Shown: in pieces, positions 16,431 to 57,081 of the stretch
How positions within the stretch are numbered: position 1 is the first letter of the stretch
How the letters are laid out: every line of letters begins with the position of its first letter
Source of the DNA: Alphaproteobacteria bacterium
Lineage (GTDB): Bacteria; Pseudomonadota; Alphaproteobacteria; Sphingomonadales; Kordiimonadaceae
Direction of reading: 5' to 3'
Assembly (NCBI GenBank): GCA_006226495.1
Contig: SBGU01000023.1
Location: 1-64,000 of the forward strand
Length of the DNA: 64,000 bases
Translations under genes and position numbers: made by a program
The notes under the pieces: generated by a model
The model's input: only the letters and a program-made list of their open reading frames with translations
Told to the model about the DNA's origin: nothing
The model's database searches: none

Positions 16431-17054
16431 CTAGCGCTTTTTTATACCGGAAAGCCTGAGGACCACCCCACCCGTGTCCGACAGGCTCTTGTACCGGTTA
16501 ACGGTCATCTTCCAACAGCTTGCAGCTTCGGTCAATTCCTCATCCGCGCCTTCCCCCTTCAGGAGCCACATTTCCGTGGTCTCGCCCAGGAACGGCGCCG
16601 CCCAGTTCATCAGTTGCAGCACCCGCGCACAGGCGCGGGAAGTGACGATATCGACCGGAAACGGCGGGATTTCCTCAATGCGCACATTGTGAATGGTCGC
16701 GTCAGCCGATGTTTCACGTGAAACCTGGTTCATAAAAATGCATTTGCGGCCGTTGGCTTCGACCATATGCGCCTGCCCCACGCCCATAACGGCGAGCACC
16801 AAAGCCGGGAAACCGGCGCCGGAGCCGATGTCCAGCATGGTCAGCTTGCGGTCGCCATAAACGCTGTGCAGATGTCTGGCCATCTGGGCCGAATCGAGGA
16901 AATGGCGGCGCCACATGTCATCCAGGGTCGAATTGGCGACCAGGTTCTTGGCTTTCTGCCATTTGGCCAACAGGCCGGCATAGGTTTCAAGCCTGGCGAG
17001 TGTTTCACGTGAAACACCGGTGTCGGCGGCAAACTCTTGAGGGCCGTAAGGCAT
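16431..17054 (-). CDS. rsmG: RsmG, 16S rRNA (guanine-527-N7)-methyltransferase
   Basis: A 207-residue SAM-dependent methyltransferase (GidB). The SAM motif is LDIGSGAGFPALVLAVMG (about 72-90) and the acidic post-motif residue is in MVEANGRKCIFM. Two parS sites lie inside the coding sequence; read in this frame each encodes V-S-R-E-T (about residues 13-18 and 111-115). It starts 16 bases after the mnmG stop, in an operon with mnmG, parA and parB. Confidence 0.97.
   Translation of the reverse strand: MPYGPQEFAADTGVSRETLARLETYAGLLAKWQKAKNLVANSTLDDMWRRHFLDSAQMARHLHSVYGDRKLTMLDIGSGAGFPALVLAVMGVGQAHMVEANGRKCIFMNQVSRETSADATIHNVRIEEIPPFPVDIVTSRACARVLQLMNWAAPFLGETTEMWLLKGEGADEELTEAASCWKMTVNRYKSLSDTGGVVLRLSGIKKR
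16710..16725. other. parS: parS site 1 (inside rsmG)
   Basis: TGTTTCACGTGAAACC matches the 16-base parS palindrome at 15 positions (last base differs). ParB nucleation site. Confidence 0.85.
17001..17016. other. parS: parS site 2 (inside rsmG)
   Basis: TGTTTCACGTGAAACA, a perfect 16-base parS palindrome, at the 5' end of the rsmG coding sequence. Confidence 0.93.
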
Positions 17055-17070
17055 ACGGGACTGGCTCCGC

Positions 17071-18942
17071 TCAGGCTGCGTGGCGTTTTTTGATATGGCC
17101 CAGGATCAGGGTCAGCGCCGCCGGCGTTACCCCGGCGATGCGGGCTGCGGCACCAAGCGTGGTCGGGCGCGCGGCCTTGAATTTCTCGCGCATCTCATTC
17201 GACAGGCCGGTGATGCCGTCAAAGTCGAGGCTTTCCGGGATCGCCAGTTGTTCGTCGCGCCGGAAGGCAACAACATCTTCCTGCTGGCGTTCCAGGTAAC
17301 CCTGGTACATGGCATCGATTTCAAGCTGGGCCGCGATCTCGGGCGACACGCTACCCAGCTCGTCCGGCCAGATTGCCTGAAGACGCGCAAAGTCGATATC
17401 GTTGAATGCGAGCAGAGTTTCGCCGGTACGGCGGATACCATCCTGATTGATCTTCAGGCCAAATTTGGCGGCTTCGTTGGGGGTCAGCGACAGGCTGCGC
17501 AGCGTGGCGCGCCCTGCTTCCAGTGCAGCCTTTTTGGCGGCAAAAGCTTCGGCACGTTCGGCCTTCACAAGACCAATACCCTCGCCCTTCTCTGTCAGGC
17601 GCTGGTCGGCATTGTCGGCACGCAACAAGAGGCGATATTCCGCCCGGCTTGTGAACATGCGGTAAGGCTCGCGCGTGCCCTGGGTCACCAGGTCGTCGAT
17701 CATCACCCCGATATAGGCATCGGCACGGTCAAGGATGAAAGGTGTCTCGGCGCCAGACGTGGCAAGTGCCGCGTTGGCGCCGACCATCAGGCCTTGCGCC
17801 GCCGCTTCCTCATAGCCCGTGGTGCCGTTGATCTGGCCGGCCAGATACAGGCCTTCAGCCCGGCGTGTCTCCAAGGTCGGTTTCAGTTCCCGCGGGTCGA
17901 TGAAATCATATTCGATGGCATAACCCGGCCGGATGATGGTGACATTCTCAAGCCCCGGGATCGAGCGGATCAGCCGCTCCTGCACCTCTTCGGGCAGGCT
18001 CGTGGAGATGCCATTCGGATAGACCGTATGGTCGTCCAGCCCTTCGGGTTCCAGGAAAACCTGATGGCTGGTCTTGTCGGCAAAACGCACGACCTTGTCT
18101 TCGATCGACGGGCAATAACGCGGGCCGCGGCTTTCGATCTGGCCGGAATACATGGGCGCCCGGTGCAGGTTTTCCCGGATCACCGCATGGGTTTCTTCGG
18201 TGGTGCGGGTCATGTAACAACTGATCTGCGGCACCGTGATTTCGCGGGTCAGGAAGGAAAAAGCCACCGGCGGATTGTCGCCCGGCTGTTCTTCACATTT
18301 CGACCAGTCGATGGTGCGGCCATCGAGGCGCGCAGGCGTGCCGGTTTTCAACCTCCCAAGCTCGAAGCCAAGCCCCATCAGGGTATCCGACAGGCCCATG
18401 GCCGGCGCTTCGCCAACCCGGCCGGCGGGGATCTTTTTCTCGCCGATATGGATCAGGCCGCGCAGGAAGGTGCCGGTGGTCAGGATCACGGCGCCTGCCC
18501 TGATTTCGCTGCCATCGGCGCACACGACACCACAGACACGCGCACGCTCGCCCGAACGGTCGACAATCAGATCTTCGACCGCGGCCCCCAGAAGGTCGAG
18601 ATTTTCGTAACCCCCGAGCAAAGCCTGCATGGCTTCGCGGTACAGCTTGCGGTCGGACTGGCAGCGCGGGCCCTGCACGGCAGGTCCCTTGCGCTGGTTC
18701 AACAGCTTGAACTGGATGCCCGAGGCATCGGCCACCCGGCCCATGATGCCATCAAGCGCATCGATCTCGCGCACCAGATGGCCCTTGCCCAAACCGCCGA
18801 TCGCCGGGTTGCAGGACATCTCGCCAATAGTCTCAAGCTTGTGGGTGACGAGCAGGGTCTTGGCGCCCACGCGCGCAGACGCCGCTGCCGCTTCACAGCC
18901 GGCATGGCCACCACCGATCACAATGACATCATATACCGTCAT
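17071..18942 (-). CDS. mnmG: MnmG (GidA), tRNA U34 modification enzyme, FAD subunit
   Basis: A 623-residue FAD protein that, with MnmE, adds carboxymethylaminomethyl to U34 of tRNAs. The dinucleotide motif is [14 protein letters not shown] (about 6-19); other signatures are [39 protein letters not shown] and [18 protein letters not shown] start at 18942 (M-T-V-Y-D-V) because residues upstream are not family-like; 18954 and 18975 are alternatives. It heads the operon mnmG-rsmG-parA-parB and lies downstream of mnmE on the same strand, separated by a terminator and parS site 3. Confidence 0.95.
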
Positions 18943-18975
18943 GCCTGCATCCATTCGCTCGGGACAGGGAAACAC

Positions 18976-18999
18976 AAAAAGAGGCCCCGGAAGGCCCCT
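18976..18999 (-). terminator. Terminator between mnmE and mnmG
   Basis: On the minus strand AGGGGCC-TTCCGG-GGCCTCT forms a seven-pair stem (one G-U) followed by TTTTTG. It lies 106-129 bases past the mnmE stop and 34 bases before the mnmG start. Confidence 0.6.
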
Positions 19000-19069
19000 A
19001 ACAGCGGTGTCTATAATAGAGAACGGACTTTAAGTCAAAGTTAAGCAGGGCGCGGTTTTTGCGCAGCAG

Positions 19070-19085
19070 TGTTTCACGTGAAACA
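19070..19085. other. parS: parS site 3 (between mnmG and mnmE)
   Basis: TGTTTCACGTGAAACA, a perfect parS palindrome, intergenic, 20 bases past the mnmE stop. Confidence 0.93.
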
Positions 19086-19104
19086 TGGCTCGCGCCAGTC
19101 CACC

Positions 19105-20460
19105 CTATTTCCCGATACAGAAGTCCGAAAAGACCACATCGAGCACATCTTCGACCCCGACCCGGCCGGTGATGCGGCCGAGCGCACGGGCGGCCATGCG
19201 CACGTCTTCGGCGGCGAGCACGGCATCGATGCCGGCGTTGCTGTCGAAGCGGGTCAGATGCTCGACTGCATCCTCGAGCGCCTTGCGGTGGCGGAGGCGG
19301 GTGAGCGACGGTGTCTCACGCGGAGCCATGGCGTCGCGTACATGCTCGGTCAGGCGGTCGAACAATTCGTCCAGGCCATGGTCAGCTTTCGCGGAAATCG
19401 CCGCGACCCCGAGCATGCCACCCGGCACGTCCGATTGTTCCACGTGAAACATGGGCACCCTGTCCGTCTGGGTCACGACGATCAGCGTGCGGTCATCGGC
19501 ATGATCGGTGAGGGTCGCCGGCAGGCGCGGCCAGTCGTCGGCGCGCACCAGCAACAGTTTCAGGTCGGCATCGCGCGCCTTGGCGAGCGCGCGGCGGATG
19601 CCTTCCTGTTCGATGGCGCCACCGCCTTCGCGCACACCCGCTGTATCGATCAGCCGCACCGGGAAACCGGCCAGGTCAAGCTGTACCTCGATACTGTCGC
19701 GCGTGGTGCCGGCCTCGTCCGACACGATGGCGACGTCTGAGCGCGCCAGCGCATTCAATAGCGTGGACTTGCCGGCATTGGGTTCCCCCAGAATGACGAT
19801 GCGGAAACCCTCTCTGAGGGCTTCGCCGCGACGTCCATCCACAAGATGTTGTGTAATATCGTCACGAAGACGCAATATTTGCGGCCTGACGGCACCCGCG
19901 ATGCCTTCGGGCAGGTCTTCGTCCGGAAAATCGATATCAGCTTCCAGATGCGCGAGATGGCCGACCAGCCGGCCGCGCCAATCCTCGTACAAATCCTTCA
20001 GGGCGCCGTCCATCTGCCTGAGCGCCTGCTCGCGCTGTGCGGCGGTCTGGGCATGAATGAGGTCGTTCAGGCCTTCGGCTTCGGTGAGGTCGAGCTTGCC
20101 CTGTTCAAACGCCCGGCGCGAAAATTCCCCGGGCTCGGCGGGGCGCAGACCGGGAATGGATGCGAGGGTTTCGATGACCCCGGCGACCACGGCCCAGCCG
20201 CCATGCAGATGCAGTTCCACCACATCCTCGCCAGTGAAACTTGCCGGTGCCTTGAAGGCAATCACCAAAGCCTGGTCGAGCCGTGCCCCGGTCGCGGGGT
20301 CACTCAGCAGCCGCACCGATGCCAGGCGTGGTGCGGGCACCGCCTTACCGCTCAGCCGTTCAAGTGCCATGAAGGACGCCGGGCCCGACAGGCGCACCAC
20401 CGCCACACCGGCCACACCGGCGCCGCTTGAAAGGGCAAAAATCGTGTCGGTACTGCTCAC
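19105..20460 (-). CDS. mnmE: MnmE (TrmE), tRNA modification GTPase
   Basis: A 451-residue GTPase partnering MnmG. The N-terminal folate-binding domain starts TDTIFALSSG; the G domain has GEPNAGKSTLLNAL (P-loop), DEAGTTRD (switch) and TQTD; the protein ends FCIGK, the conserved C-x-G-K tail. I set the start at a GTG at 20460, with GAGG five bases upstream. An in-frame ATG at 20508 and a longer frame to 20616 exist, but they read through a copy of the interspersed repeat (giving FALSLSKGR), so they are unlikely. parS site 4 lies inside the gene. Confidence 0.93.
   Translation of the reverse strand: MSSTDTIFALSSGAGVAGVAVVRLSGPASFMALERLSGKAVPAPRLASVRLLSDPATGARLDQALVIAFKAPASFTGEDVVELHLHGGWAVVAGVIETLASIPGLRPAEPGEFSRRAFEQGKLDLTEAEGLNDLIHAQTAAQREQALRQMDGALKDLYEDWRGRLVGHLAHLEADIDFPDEDLPEGIAGAVRPQILRLRDDITQHLVDGRRGEALREGFRIVILGEPNAGKSTLLNALARSDVAIVSDEAGTTRDSIEVQLDLAGFPVRLIDTAGVREGGGAIEQEGIRRALAKARDADLKLLLVRADDWPRLPATLTDHADDRTLIVVTQTDRVPMFHVEQSDVPGGMLGVAAISAKADHGLDELFDRLTEHVRDAMAPRETPSLTRLRHRKALEDAVEHLTRFDSNAGIDAVLAAEDVRMAARALGRITGRVGVEDVLDVVFSDFCIGK
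19436..19451. other. parS: parS site 4 (inside mnmE)
   Basis: TGTTCCACGTGAAACA fits the degenerate parS consensus TGTTNCACGTGAAACA exactly. Read in the mnmE frame it encodes M-F-H-V-E-Q. Confidence 0.88.
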
Positions 20461-26853: not shown

Positions 26854-27885
26854 TTACCGACGGAATTGTTTGATGGTGTCGCTCAGAAGCGCCACATGTT
26901 CGGGCGGCGTTTCCGGCACGAAGCCGTGGCCCAGGTTGAAAATATGAGCGCCGCCCTTGAGGGCATCAAGGATACGATTGGCCTCATCCACCATCGGCTG
27001 GCCGCCCGCAACCACCATATGCGGGTCCAGGTTGCCCTGCACACAGACTTTGCTCTGCACCTGTTCGCGCGCCCAGGAAAGCGGCACACCGGTATCGAGG
27101 GAGACGGCATCCACACCCGTGGCCTCGACAAATTTTGGCAACAGGGCCCCGGCCAGGCGCGGGAAACCGATGATCGGCGTCTCCGGGTGTTTGGCCCGCA
27201 CTTTTTCAACGATGGCTTTCGTGGGTTCGATCACCCATTTGTCGAACGCGGGTTCCGGCAGTGCCGCCGACCAACTGTCGAAAATCTGCACGGCATCGGC
27301 ACCGGCGTCGATCTGGCGGATCAAATACTGGCTGGTGGCATCGACCAGCATATCGAGGATACGGCCAAACAGGTCCGGGTTACCGTAGCCGAGCTGGCGC
27401 GCAGCCGCATGGTCCTTGCTGCCCGATCCTTCGATCATGTAGGTGGCCACCGTCCAGGGCGCGCCCGCGAACCCAAGCAGGGTCACCTCTGCAGGCAAAG
27501 CCGATTTCAGCATCGAAACCGTTTCATAAACGGGCCCCGCGCGGTCATGGAACGTGTCGGTGGACAAAGCCCTGTAGGTGGCTTCGTCATTCACGGCCTT
27601 CAGCCGCGGGCCATGGCCGGCTTCAAACCAGACTTTCTGGCCCAGGGCATCGGGCACCACCAGGATGTCGGCAAACAGGATGGCGCCGTCCATGCCGTAC
27701 CGCCGGATCGGCTGCAGGGTAACCTCGGCCGCCTTCCTGGGGCTGTAGCAGAATTCCATGAAGGAGCCCGTGGTGGCCCTGACTTCCCGATATTCCGGCA
27801 GATAACGTCCGGCCTGGCGCATGAACCAGAAAGGTACACGTTCACCCGGGTTTCCCCTGAGAGTCTCGAGAAGTATTTTTGTCAT
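26854..27885 (-). CDS. hemE: Uroporphyrinogen decarboxylase
   Basis: A 343-residue enzyme that removes four carboxyls from uroporphyrinogen III. Signatures: PFWFMRQAGRYLPEYREVR (substrate loop), GFAGAPWTVATYMIEG, QIFDSWSAALP and the family's end GHGFVPETPPEHV. ATG 27885 has AAGG upstream; the longer frame to 28041 runs into the origin region and is rejected. It flanks the predicted oriC, as in Caulobacter and Rickettsia. Confidence 0.97.
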   Translation of the reverse strand: MTKILLETLRGNPGERVPFWFMRQAGRYLPEYREVRATTGSFMEFCYSPRKAAEVTLQPIRRYGMDGAILFADILVVPDALGQKVWFEAGHGPRLKAVNDEATYRALSTDTFHDRAGPVYETVSMLKSALPAEVTLLGFAGAPWTVATYMIEGSGSKDHAAARQLGYGNPDLFGRILDMLVDATSQYLIRQIDAGADAVQIFDSWSAALPEPAFDKWVIEPTKAIVEKVRAKHPETPIIGFPRLAGALLPKFVEATGVDAVSLDTGVPLSWAREQVQSKVCVQGNLDPHMVVAGGQPMVDEANRILDALKGGAHIFNLGHGFVPETPPEHVALLSDTIKQFRR

Positions 27886-28315
27886 GCGAAAGAACCTTGA
27901 GTTACGGGTACAAACCGGGCCACGAGGCGAAGCCCCTCTACACATATAAGTATATAATAAGAAATGGTAGTTGTTGTTTATGCCTGTGAATCCTGTGGAT
28001 AACAACTTATCCACAGTCTTGTTAACAATAACAGCCGACACGTTGCCGCATCATGAATTTTGTGAATAAAACTTTGGATTAGGCGCGGGTTAGCATCGGG
28101 AATCGTTGGCTTTTTGCGGGCCGGGCGCCCTTCATATAGCTGTGGATAACGGGGATAACACCAAAATACGGGGTTTTCCCAGGACGGTTTTCCCCTATGG
28201 TTTGTTCTGTGGACAGACAAAACAAATTTATGGACAATATGTTTCCGGATTGGGGGCAAGTGCACCTGCGCGGTTTTCAACCGGTTTGCCAACAAGTTAT
28301 CCACAGGCTATTCCC
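27886..28315. other. oriC: Predicted chromosomal replication origin (oriC)
   Basis: A 430-base gene-free, AT-richer stretch between hemE and the dikinase regulator, the position of oriC in Caulobacter and Rickettsia. Five exact matches to TTATNCACA: 27994-28002 (minus), 28007-28015 (plus), 28061-28069 (minus), 28141-28149 (minus), 28297-28305 (plus); near matches at 28208-28216 and 28228-28236. An AT block at 27941-27966 is a candidate unwinding element. Two GGTTTTCCC direct repeats lie at 28172-28194. Gene direction flips across it: mostly minus to the left, plus to the right. Confidence 0.85.
27941..27966. other. AT-rich candidate DNA-unwinding element
   Basis: Almost pure A/T (CACATATAAGTATATAATAA and following bases), about 30 bases left of the first DnaA box pair. 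It could alternatively be the hemE promoter; both roles can coexist. Confidence 0.5.
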
Positions 28316-29173
28316 ATGAGTCTTCCCCCGGCTGAACGCCACCAAACACAGGAATTCCACCTGCACCTTGTGTCCGATTCCACGGGCGAGACCCTGGAAG
28401 CCATCGTGTCCGCCGCGCTGGTGCAGTTCGAAGGCGTGAATGTACACAAACATTACTGGCCGCTGGTGCGGTCTTCCATGCAGATGGAACGGCTGATGGA
28501 AGACATCCGCGAGGACCCGGGGCTGATCATGTATACGATCGTGAACCCCAAGATCCGCGATGCTTTGGAAGAAGGCTGCATGGCGGCCAACCTGCCGGTG
28601 CTGTCGATCCTGGACCCGGTCATCAACCTTCTGGGGTCCTATTTTGGCGTGCAGGCGTCGCACAAGTCTGGGCGCCAGCATGCCATGGACACCCATTATT
28701 TCGAGCGCATCGACGCCCTGCATTTCACCATGGCGCATGACGATGGCCAGCTTGTGGAAGATGTGCCGCAGGCGGATATCATCCTGGTGGGTGTGTCGCG
28801 GTCGTCAAAAACACCGACCAGCATTTACCTGGCCAACAAGGGCTATAAAACCCTGAACGTGCCATTTGTGCCGGGCTGCCCGATGCCGCCCGAACTGGAC
28901 GCCAACCATGGCAAGTTTGTCGTTGGCCTGACCGCGAGCCCGGACCGGCTGGTGGCCATCCGCACCAGCCGCCTGCGTTCGATCCATGAAAGCGAAGTGG
29001 CGGACTATAACGACCTCGACCATATCCTGGACGAGATCAAGGAATGCCGGCGCTATTGCACCCAGCGTGGCTGGCCGATCATCGATGTGACCCGTCGTTC
29101 GATCGAAGAAACGGCGGCAGCCATCCTGAACCGCTACCACCTGTGGCTTGAAGCCAAGATGAAACAGGTCTGA
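28316..29173 (+). CDS. ppsR: Pyruvate,water/phosphate dikinase regulatory protein (DUF299)
   Basis: A 285-residue bifunctional ADP-dependent kinase and Pi-dependent phosphorylase that switches PEP synthase or pyruvate,phosphate dikinase. Motifs: FHLHLVSDSTGETLEAI at the start, the P-loop-like GVSRSSKTPTSIYLANKGYK (about 160-180) and SRLRSIHES. The family is the 'RP001' gene next to oriC in Rickettsia. I use ATG 28316, just past the last DnaA box; the longer frame from 28106 crosses the origin. Next gene maf begins five bases on. Confidence 0.95.
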   Translation: MSLPPAERHQTQEFHLHLVSDSTGETLEAIVSAALVQFEGVNVHKHYWPLVRSSMQMERLMEDIREDPGLIMYTIVNPKIRDALEEGCMAANLPVLSILDPVINLLGSYFGVQASHKSGRQHAMDTHYFERIDALHFTMAHDDGQLVEDVPQADIILVGVSRSSKTPTSIYLANKGYKTLNVPFVPGCPMPPELDANHGKFVVGLTASPDRLVAIRTSRLRSIHESEVADYNDLDHILDEIKECRRYCTQRGWPIIDVTRRSIEETAAAILNRYHLWLEAKMKQV

Positions 29174-44179: not shown

Positions 44180-44974
44180 ATGGCGGATATGGTGAAAGTT
44201 GGAATCCTCGGCTGCATGGGCCGCATGGGCCGGGCGCTGACGGAATCGGTGCTTGAGAACCCGGCCACGATGCTGGTTGCCGGCAGCGAGGTCGAGGTCC
44301 ATCCCATGATCGGCCAGGTCGTGCCCGGCACCGATGTCGAAATTCTCAATGCCTCGGCGCGTGTGTTCGCCGCCGCTGATGTGGTGCTGGATTTCACCCC
44401 GCCCGGCAATACCGCCGCCCACGCCGCCCTGGCCGCCGAAACCGAGACCGCCTATATCGTCGGCACCACCGGCCTCTCTGACATGGACCATGCCGCGCTC
44501 GATATGGCCGGCCAGGCCGCCGCCATCGTGCAGGCCGGCAATTTTTCGCTGGGTGTGAACCTCCTGATGGCCCTGGTGCGTGACGCCGCAAAAGCGCTGG
44601 ACGACACATGGGATATCGAAGTCGTGGAAGCCCACCACCGGCACAAGATCGACGCACCGTCTGGCACCGCGCTGATGCTCGGTGAAGCGGCGGCAGAAGG
44701 TAGAAATGTTGCACTTGCAACAGTTCGCACGCCCGCGCGCGAGGGCCTGACCGGTGAACGCATTCCCGGCAGCATCGGCTTTTCCGCGATCCGGGGAGGT
44801 GGTGTGATCGGCGATCATGATGTGATTTTCATGGCCGGCAGCGAACGGTTGACCCTGTCGCACCGGGCCGAAAACCGGCGCCTGTTCGCGGACGGTGCCG
44901 TGAAGGCGGCCCTGTGGGCGGTGGCCCAGAAACCTGGCCGTTACGACATGCAGCATGTGCTGGGCCTTGGCTGA
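44180..44974 (+). CDS. dapB: 4-hydroxy-tetrahydrodipicolinate reductase
   Basis: A 264-residue NAD(P)H-dependent enzyme of lysine and diaminopimelate synthesis. Dinucleotide motif VGILGCMGRMGRAL, then DFTPPGNT, GTTGLSDMDH, and the catalytic signature EVVEAHHRHKIDAPSGTALMLGEA. AAGGAACG precedes the ATG. It leads a plus-strand run with DUF350 and protease genes. Confidence 0.97.
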   Translation: MADMVKVGILGCMGRMGRALTESVLENPATMLVAGSEVEVHPMIGQVVPGTDVEILNASARVFAAADVVLDFTPPGNTAAHAALAAETETAYIVGTTGLSDMDHAALDMAGQAAAIVQAGNFSLGVNLLMALVRDAAKALDDTWDIEVVEAHHRHKIDAPSGTALMLGEAAAEGRNVALATVRTPAREGLTGERIPGSIGFSAIRGGGVIGDHDVIFMAGSERLTLSHRAENRRLFADGAVKAALWAVAQKPGRYDMQHVLGLG

Positions 44975-57059: not shown

Positions 57060-57081
57060 CCGGGGGCTGTGCATAAAGCCG

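Follow-up and report, generated by a model that had tools for sequence, protein, structure and literature searches.

A hemE-type chromosomal replication origin of a Kordiimonadaceae bacterium and a conserved module that may open it

The described origins that are closest to the locus analysed here are situated beside hemE. In Caulobacter crescentus the origin, Cori, lies between hemE and a COG1806 gene and contains an AT-rich region and DnaA boxes, including weak TCCCC-type sites and moderate G-boxes; comparable hemE-type origins, whose AT-rich gap is about 400 bp long, are those of Rickettsia prowazekii and its relatives (PMC1914354). A literature search for a Kordiimonas replication origin found none. 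The way in which DnaA enters single-stranded DNA comes from DnaA-trio work (PMC8287927, PMC10721633, PMC10316083). The basal unwinding system (BUS) of B. subtilis comprises two tandem boxes (DnaA-boxes 6/7, with the stronger on the outside), a short spacer and 3′-GAT-5′ triplets (DnaA-trios) 5′ of the boxes, which guide DnaA onto single-stranded DNA (PMC8287927). As the structure from B. subtilis shows, Asn187 contacts the middle A of the trio, and Arg202 together with Glu228 contacts the G; the change of A to T or G lowers the activity, while A to C does not (PMC10721633). DnaA of T. maritima needs TAG repeats (PMC10316083). The published trio rule asks for a middle A in at least three triplets (NAN), and its authors suspected that deviant trios without this A stand behind part of the 15% of origins missed by the rule.

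The present locus was studied in a window of 64,000 nucleotides, which is the whole stretch of DNA analysed, from a 4.32-Mb draft genome. An earlier note had placed an origin here, in the hemE position known from Caulobacter and Rickettsia, and both boundary genes, hemE and COG1806/ppsR, were confirmed (Table 1). The gap reaches from the hemE start codon (27885, minus strand) to the ppsR ATG (28316, plus strand) and genes diverge on both sides of it, as had been claimed, with parB, parA, rsmG, mnmG, mnmE, rho, a hemJ-like gene and hemE on the minus-strand side and ppsR, maf, aroE and coaE on the plus-strand side; hemE and ppsR are divergent neighbours in 56 of the 60 genomes of the class that were examined. 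All five exact TTATNCACA boxes reported previously were found within the 430 gene-free bases, a clustering beyond chance, given 0.62 such boxes expected per 64 kb (maximum 2) in dinucleotide shuffles. Only one more occurs in the window, at 57068, and the draft genome contains 32, with the 5 of the gap included. The AT-rich block said to lie beside the boxes is present as well: the 40-mer at 27942, at 20% G+C, ties for the lowest value of the window, the G+C content of the gap being 46.5%. The four parS sites mentioned in the note were recovered at 16710, 17001, 19070 and 19436, about 8.4–11.2 kb from the gap, and constitute the sole canonical (TGTTTCACGTGAAACA-like) cluster of the whole draft genome; parS sites are also close to the origin in two complete chromosomes of the same genus, G012 and G007.

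Table 1. Features of the assigned origin and its surroundings (positions in the window; a dot marks features without strand).
Feature	Position	Strand	Evidence or family conservation
parS cluster, four sites, by parA/parB	16710..19451	.	also next to the origin in two relatives
hemE, left boundary gene	26854..27885	-	TIGR01464, 401.8 bits
Assigned oriC, without genes, flanked by hemE and ppsR in divergent orientation	27886..28315	.	box cluster; skew minimum of two complete relatives located at this gap
AT-rich block where unwinding presumably begins	27942..27967	+	AT-rich block at the same place in 24/24 family origins
DnaA-trio-like triplets TAG TTG TTG TTT ATG, relaxed middle base	27968..27982	+	T and G family columns at 3-bp spacing, 16-23/24 each
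CC clamp between triplets and boxes	27983..27984	+	C at the two positions in 20/24 and 23/24, respectively
Weak DnaA box GGATTCACA (plus strand TGTGAATCC), abutting the next box	27985..27993	-	TGTGAA or near form in 24/24
DnaA box TTATCCACA, left member of the face-to-face pair	27994..28002	-	exact match
DnaA box TTATCCACA, right member of the pair, 4 bp from the left one	28007..28015	+	exact match
DnaA box TTATTCACA	28061..28069	-	exact match; TGTGNATAA at the same place in 10/24 family origins
DnaA box TTATCCACA, then GGGGATAAC (W-box-like, 28151)	28141..28149	-	exact match
TCCCC, Caulobacter W-box-like weak site	28191..28195	+	family enrichment
DnaA box TTATCCACA adjoining the ppsR start	28297..28305	+	22/24 origins have a TTATCCACA at the ppsR end
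ppsR (COG1806/DUF299), right boundary gene	28316..29173	+	NF003742, 330.5 bits

Since the genome is a 60-contig draft, GC skew was computed on sampled and contiguous stretches of G012 and G007, so that the minimum was read in two complete relatives and not on the draft genome itself. A skew minimum elsewhere on the chromosome had been named in advance as evidence against an origin here, and in both relatives the minimum falls at the hemE gap. In G012 less than 30 bp separate the cumulative minimum (437,842, in contiguous sequence) from the hemE start codon (437,871), which the gap immediately precedes; in G007 the minimum (549,449) is about 200 bp from the start codon at 549,633. In 20 samples over 3.85 Mb of G012 the skew is negative up to 405 kb, then near zero or above it as far as 2.33 Mb, and negative afterwards; one further sign change is found near the opposite side of each chromosome, at 2.33–2.50 Mb (G012) and 2.42–2.90 Mb (G007). 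The skew of the window itself is weak, its minimum (24,040) lying about 4 kb off the gap. In the two records dnaA starts at base 58 (G012) and base 40 (G007), thus both are numbered from dnaA, and base 1, which is 438 kb and 549 kb away from the respective skew minimum, is not the origin. The position of the origin is thereby fixed for a genus whose two complete chromosomes are counted from another place.

Because the position, the boxes, the AT-rich block, the parS cluster, the divergent genes, the conservation in 24 genomes and the skew minima of the relatives agree, the gap is almost certainly the chromosomal origin, and the boxes, the skew minima at hemE and the nearby sole parS cluster make it an ordinary alphaproteobacterial hemE-type oriC, of a known kind. 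Boxes adjoin both start codons, as they also would if the cluster titrated DnaA or formed a DnaA-regulated promoter region of hemE/ppsR while the true origin lay elsewhere; this reading is left with next to no probability by the skew minimum of two complete relatives at the gap, by parS in the vicinity and by the conserved AT-rich and triplet block.

With Cori the locus shares the boundary genes, an AT-rich region and DnaA boxes that include weak TCCCC-type sites; it differs in having perfect TTATNCACA boxes, not only moderate G-boxes, and in having no CtrA site and, in the window, no IHF consensus match. The TCCCC motif, which we take to be the core of the Caulobacter W-boxes, occurs 51 times in the 24 family origins vs 21.5 ± 3.8 times after shuffling, that is 2.4 times more commonly. 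The boundary genes, DnaA boxes and a gap of similar kind are shared also with R. prowazekii and related hemE-type origins, from which the locus is set apart by a much more G+C-rich genome and, again, by having no match to the IHF consensus. The latter (WATCAN5WTR) is matched 6 times in the family vs 7.1 expected, which is no enrichment, although the consensus is loose and real bending by IHF or HU is possible.

The absence of a TTAA-N7-TTAA CtrA site from the gap, noticed earlier, was confirmed and extended: none of the 24 family origins has an exact site, and sites with one mismatch (6 in all) are fewer than in shuffles (17.9). The genome does encode CtrA, with 75% identity to a Caulobacter query, as well as GcrA and a RAMA-domain protein (CcrM-like); a Caulobacter-type origin controlled by CtrA through degenerate sites could be imagined on this ground, and the counts of exact and one-mismatch sites render it very unlikely. 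According to a review, Caulobacter and possibly Rickettsia are the only cases in which CtrA sites are seen in the origin (PMC4468827), hence their absence is ordinary. The suggestion that control may differ from Caulobacter therefore agrees with the missing sites, but this is the usual state and does not set the origin apart. Among 80 named alphaproteobacterial hemE loci, the exact site was observed beside hemE only in Cohaesibacter and Hyphomonadaceae (L098, L102, L104, L113). Regarding GANTC (CcrM-type) sites, 12 are present in each of the near-identical gaps L016 and L017 vs 0–4 in the other family origins; a general enrichment in the family (63 vs 31) was dropped, as 24 of the 63 come from these two genomes.

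The family alignment of the gap, made of 22 sequences and two from an anchor search, adds a new detail. All 24 origins have in common a probable opening module, which on the plus strand reads: AT-rich block, three to four triplets that begin with T and end with G, CC, a TGTGAA weak box, a TGnGGAnAA tandem box, 4 bp and a facing TTATCCACA. A GANTC site (27988) falls in the weak box of this genome. The module layout can be recognised at many other alphaproteobacterial hemE-side gaps. A scan with the family position matrix was used only for the extent of the module, because the triplet columns make it circular; a search with the boxes alone is the cleaner check, and it picked a wrong site in part of 100 sequences. 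The box pair that had been singled out is indeed face to face with a four-base gap. As a notable arrangement it stood in part: 20 of the 24 origins have an exact right box at this spacing, but the left one is exact in only 3 and degenerate (TGnGGAnAA) in most relatives. Both are exact in this genome only (1/24), and the perfect palindromic pair is thus unique among the 24.

One may ask if this module corresponds to the BUS. Both have tandem boxes of which the outer is the stronger, a C/G spacer that is short and within the published range, and at least three triplets on one strand, 5′ of the boxes. Unlike in B. subtilis, the middle base is A or T and not A (the triplets of the window being TAG TTG TTG TTT), and the pair is accompanied by a third box, which faces it at a distance of 4 bp. 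Among 96 family triplets taken in a fixed register from the 24 origins, TAG is present 39 times, TTG 23, TGG 10 and others 24, and the T/G register match is 7.33 of 8 vs 4.16 ± 0.17 in shuffled sequences; in L024 TTG is repeated four times. In 44 sequences from other alphaproteobacteria, selected for their box score, A stands in the middle of the triplet 45 times, T 36, G 18 and C once. As the middle base may be A or T, the published rule, re-implemented here, catches the conserved site in only 3 of the 24 family origins (the near-identical L016 and L017, and L021), and the window is not among them.

The T-centred trio works poorly in B. subtilis (PMC10721633), therefore a different nature of the triplets is conceivable. 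They might represent an AT-rich spacer or the hemE leader, with the origin opened by E. coli-like ssDUE recruitment via TTGT: TTGT, which E. coli DnaA binds (PMC10316083), is present wherever TTG triplets stand in tandem, and E. coli DnaA is likewise without Asn at the position in question, where it has Gln. The triplets nevertheless keep the 3-bp register directly beside the tandem boxes, at a spacer length known from the literature, and the most frequent of them is TAG, which makes such a reading unlikely, though its share is far from negligible. The assignment of an unwinding module to this origin is, in turn, probable.

The DnaA of this organism, aligned to 8btg, has Phe in place of Asn187 and Lys in place of Arg202, with Glu228 and Glu183 kept. 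The same differences from B. subtilis extend to all 57 readable alphaproteobacterial DnaA sequences, which have Phe (26) or Tyr (31) at Asn187 and Lys at Arg202, while T. maritima DnaA retains Asn at the former position. Such a pattern in the sequences suggests that the loss of Asn187 may relax the recognition of the middle base. Alphaproteobacterial DnaA might then read a relaxed trio code, T-W-G and not T-A-G, through an aromatic residue instead of the adenine-contacting Asn187; the code is plausible, not proven, and the tie to this residue is tentative, being less certain than the module and a little more doubtful than believable. The change is class-wide, hence the link rests on one evolutionary contrast, between a single class and two or three distant species whose trios were defined with a middle A, and the retained Glu183, which may also touch the A, counts against it. 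If true, the relaxed code would mean that the recognition of single-stranded origin DNA has changed in a whole lineage, as seen through the origins of this family, which provides a concrete, aligned case of deviant trios with a matching change in DnaA.

From this arrangement we infer the following order of events. The strong boxes would be occupied by DnaA first. The tandem pair at 27985-28002, backed by the facing box at 28007-28015, may seed a DnaA oligomer, which would extend towards hemE onto the plus-strand triplets TAG-TTG-TTG-TTT and capture their bases, thus opening the AT-rich block at about 27942-27967, where the helicase would be loaded. The remaining boxes and the weak GGGGA sites could set the amount of DnaA that is required. 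The middle base (A or T) would probably be read loosely across the class, perhaps owing to Phe/Tyr in place of Asn187, with the contacts to G (Lys for Arg202, Glu228) kept.

A 16-bp palindrome, TGTTGCACGTGCAACA, which is close to parS but different from it, was also observed in this genome. It occurs in seven exact copies on seven contigs with unrelated flanks (C6:22419, C30:24735, C32:55134, C36:29192, C49:60823, C52:12397 and C57:73325). Only one of 25 relatives has a copy, and a degenerate one is located in the window at 44707-44722.
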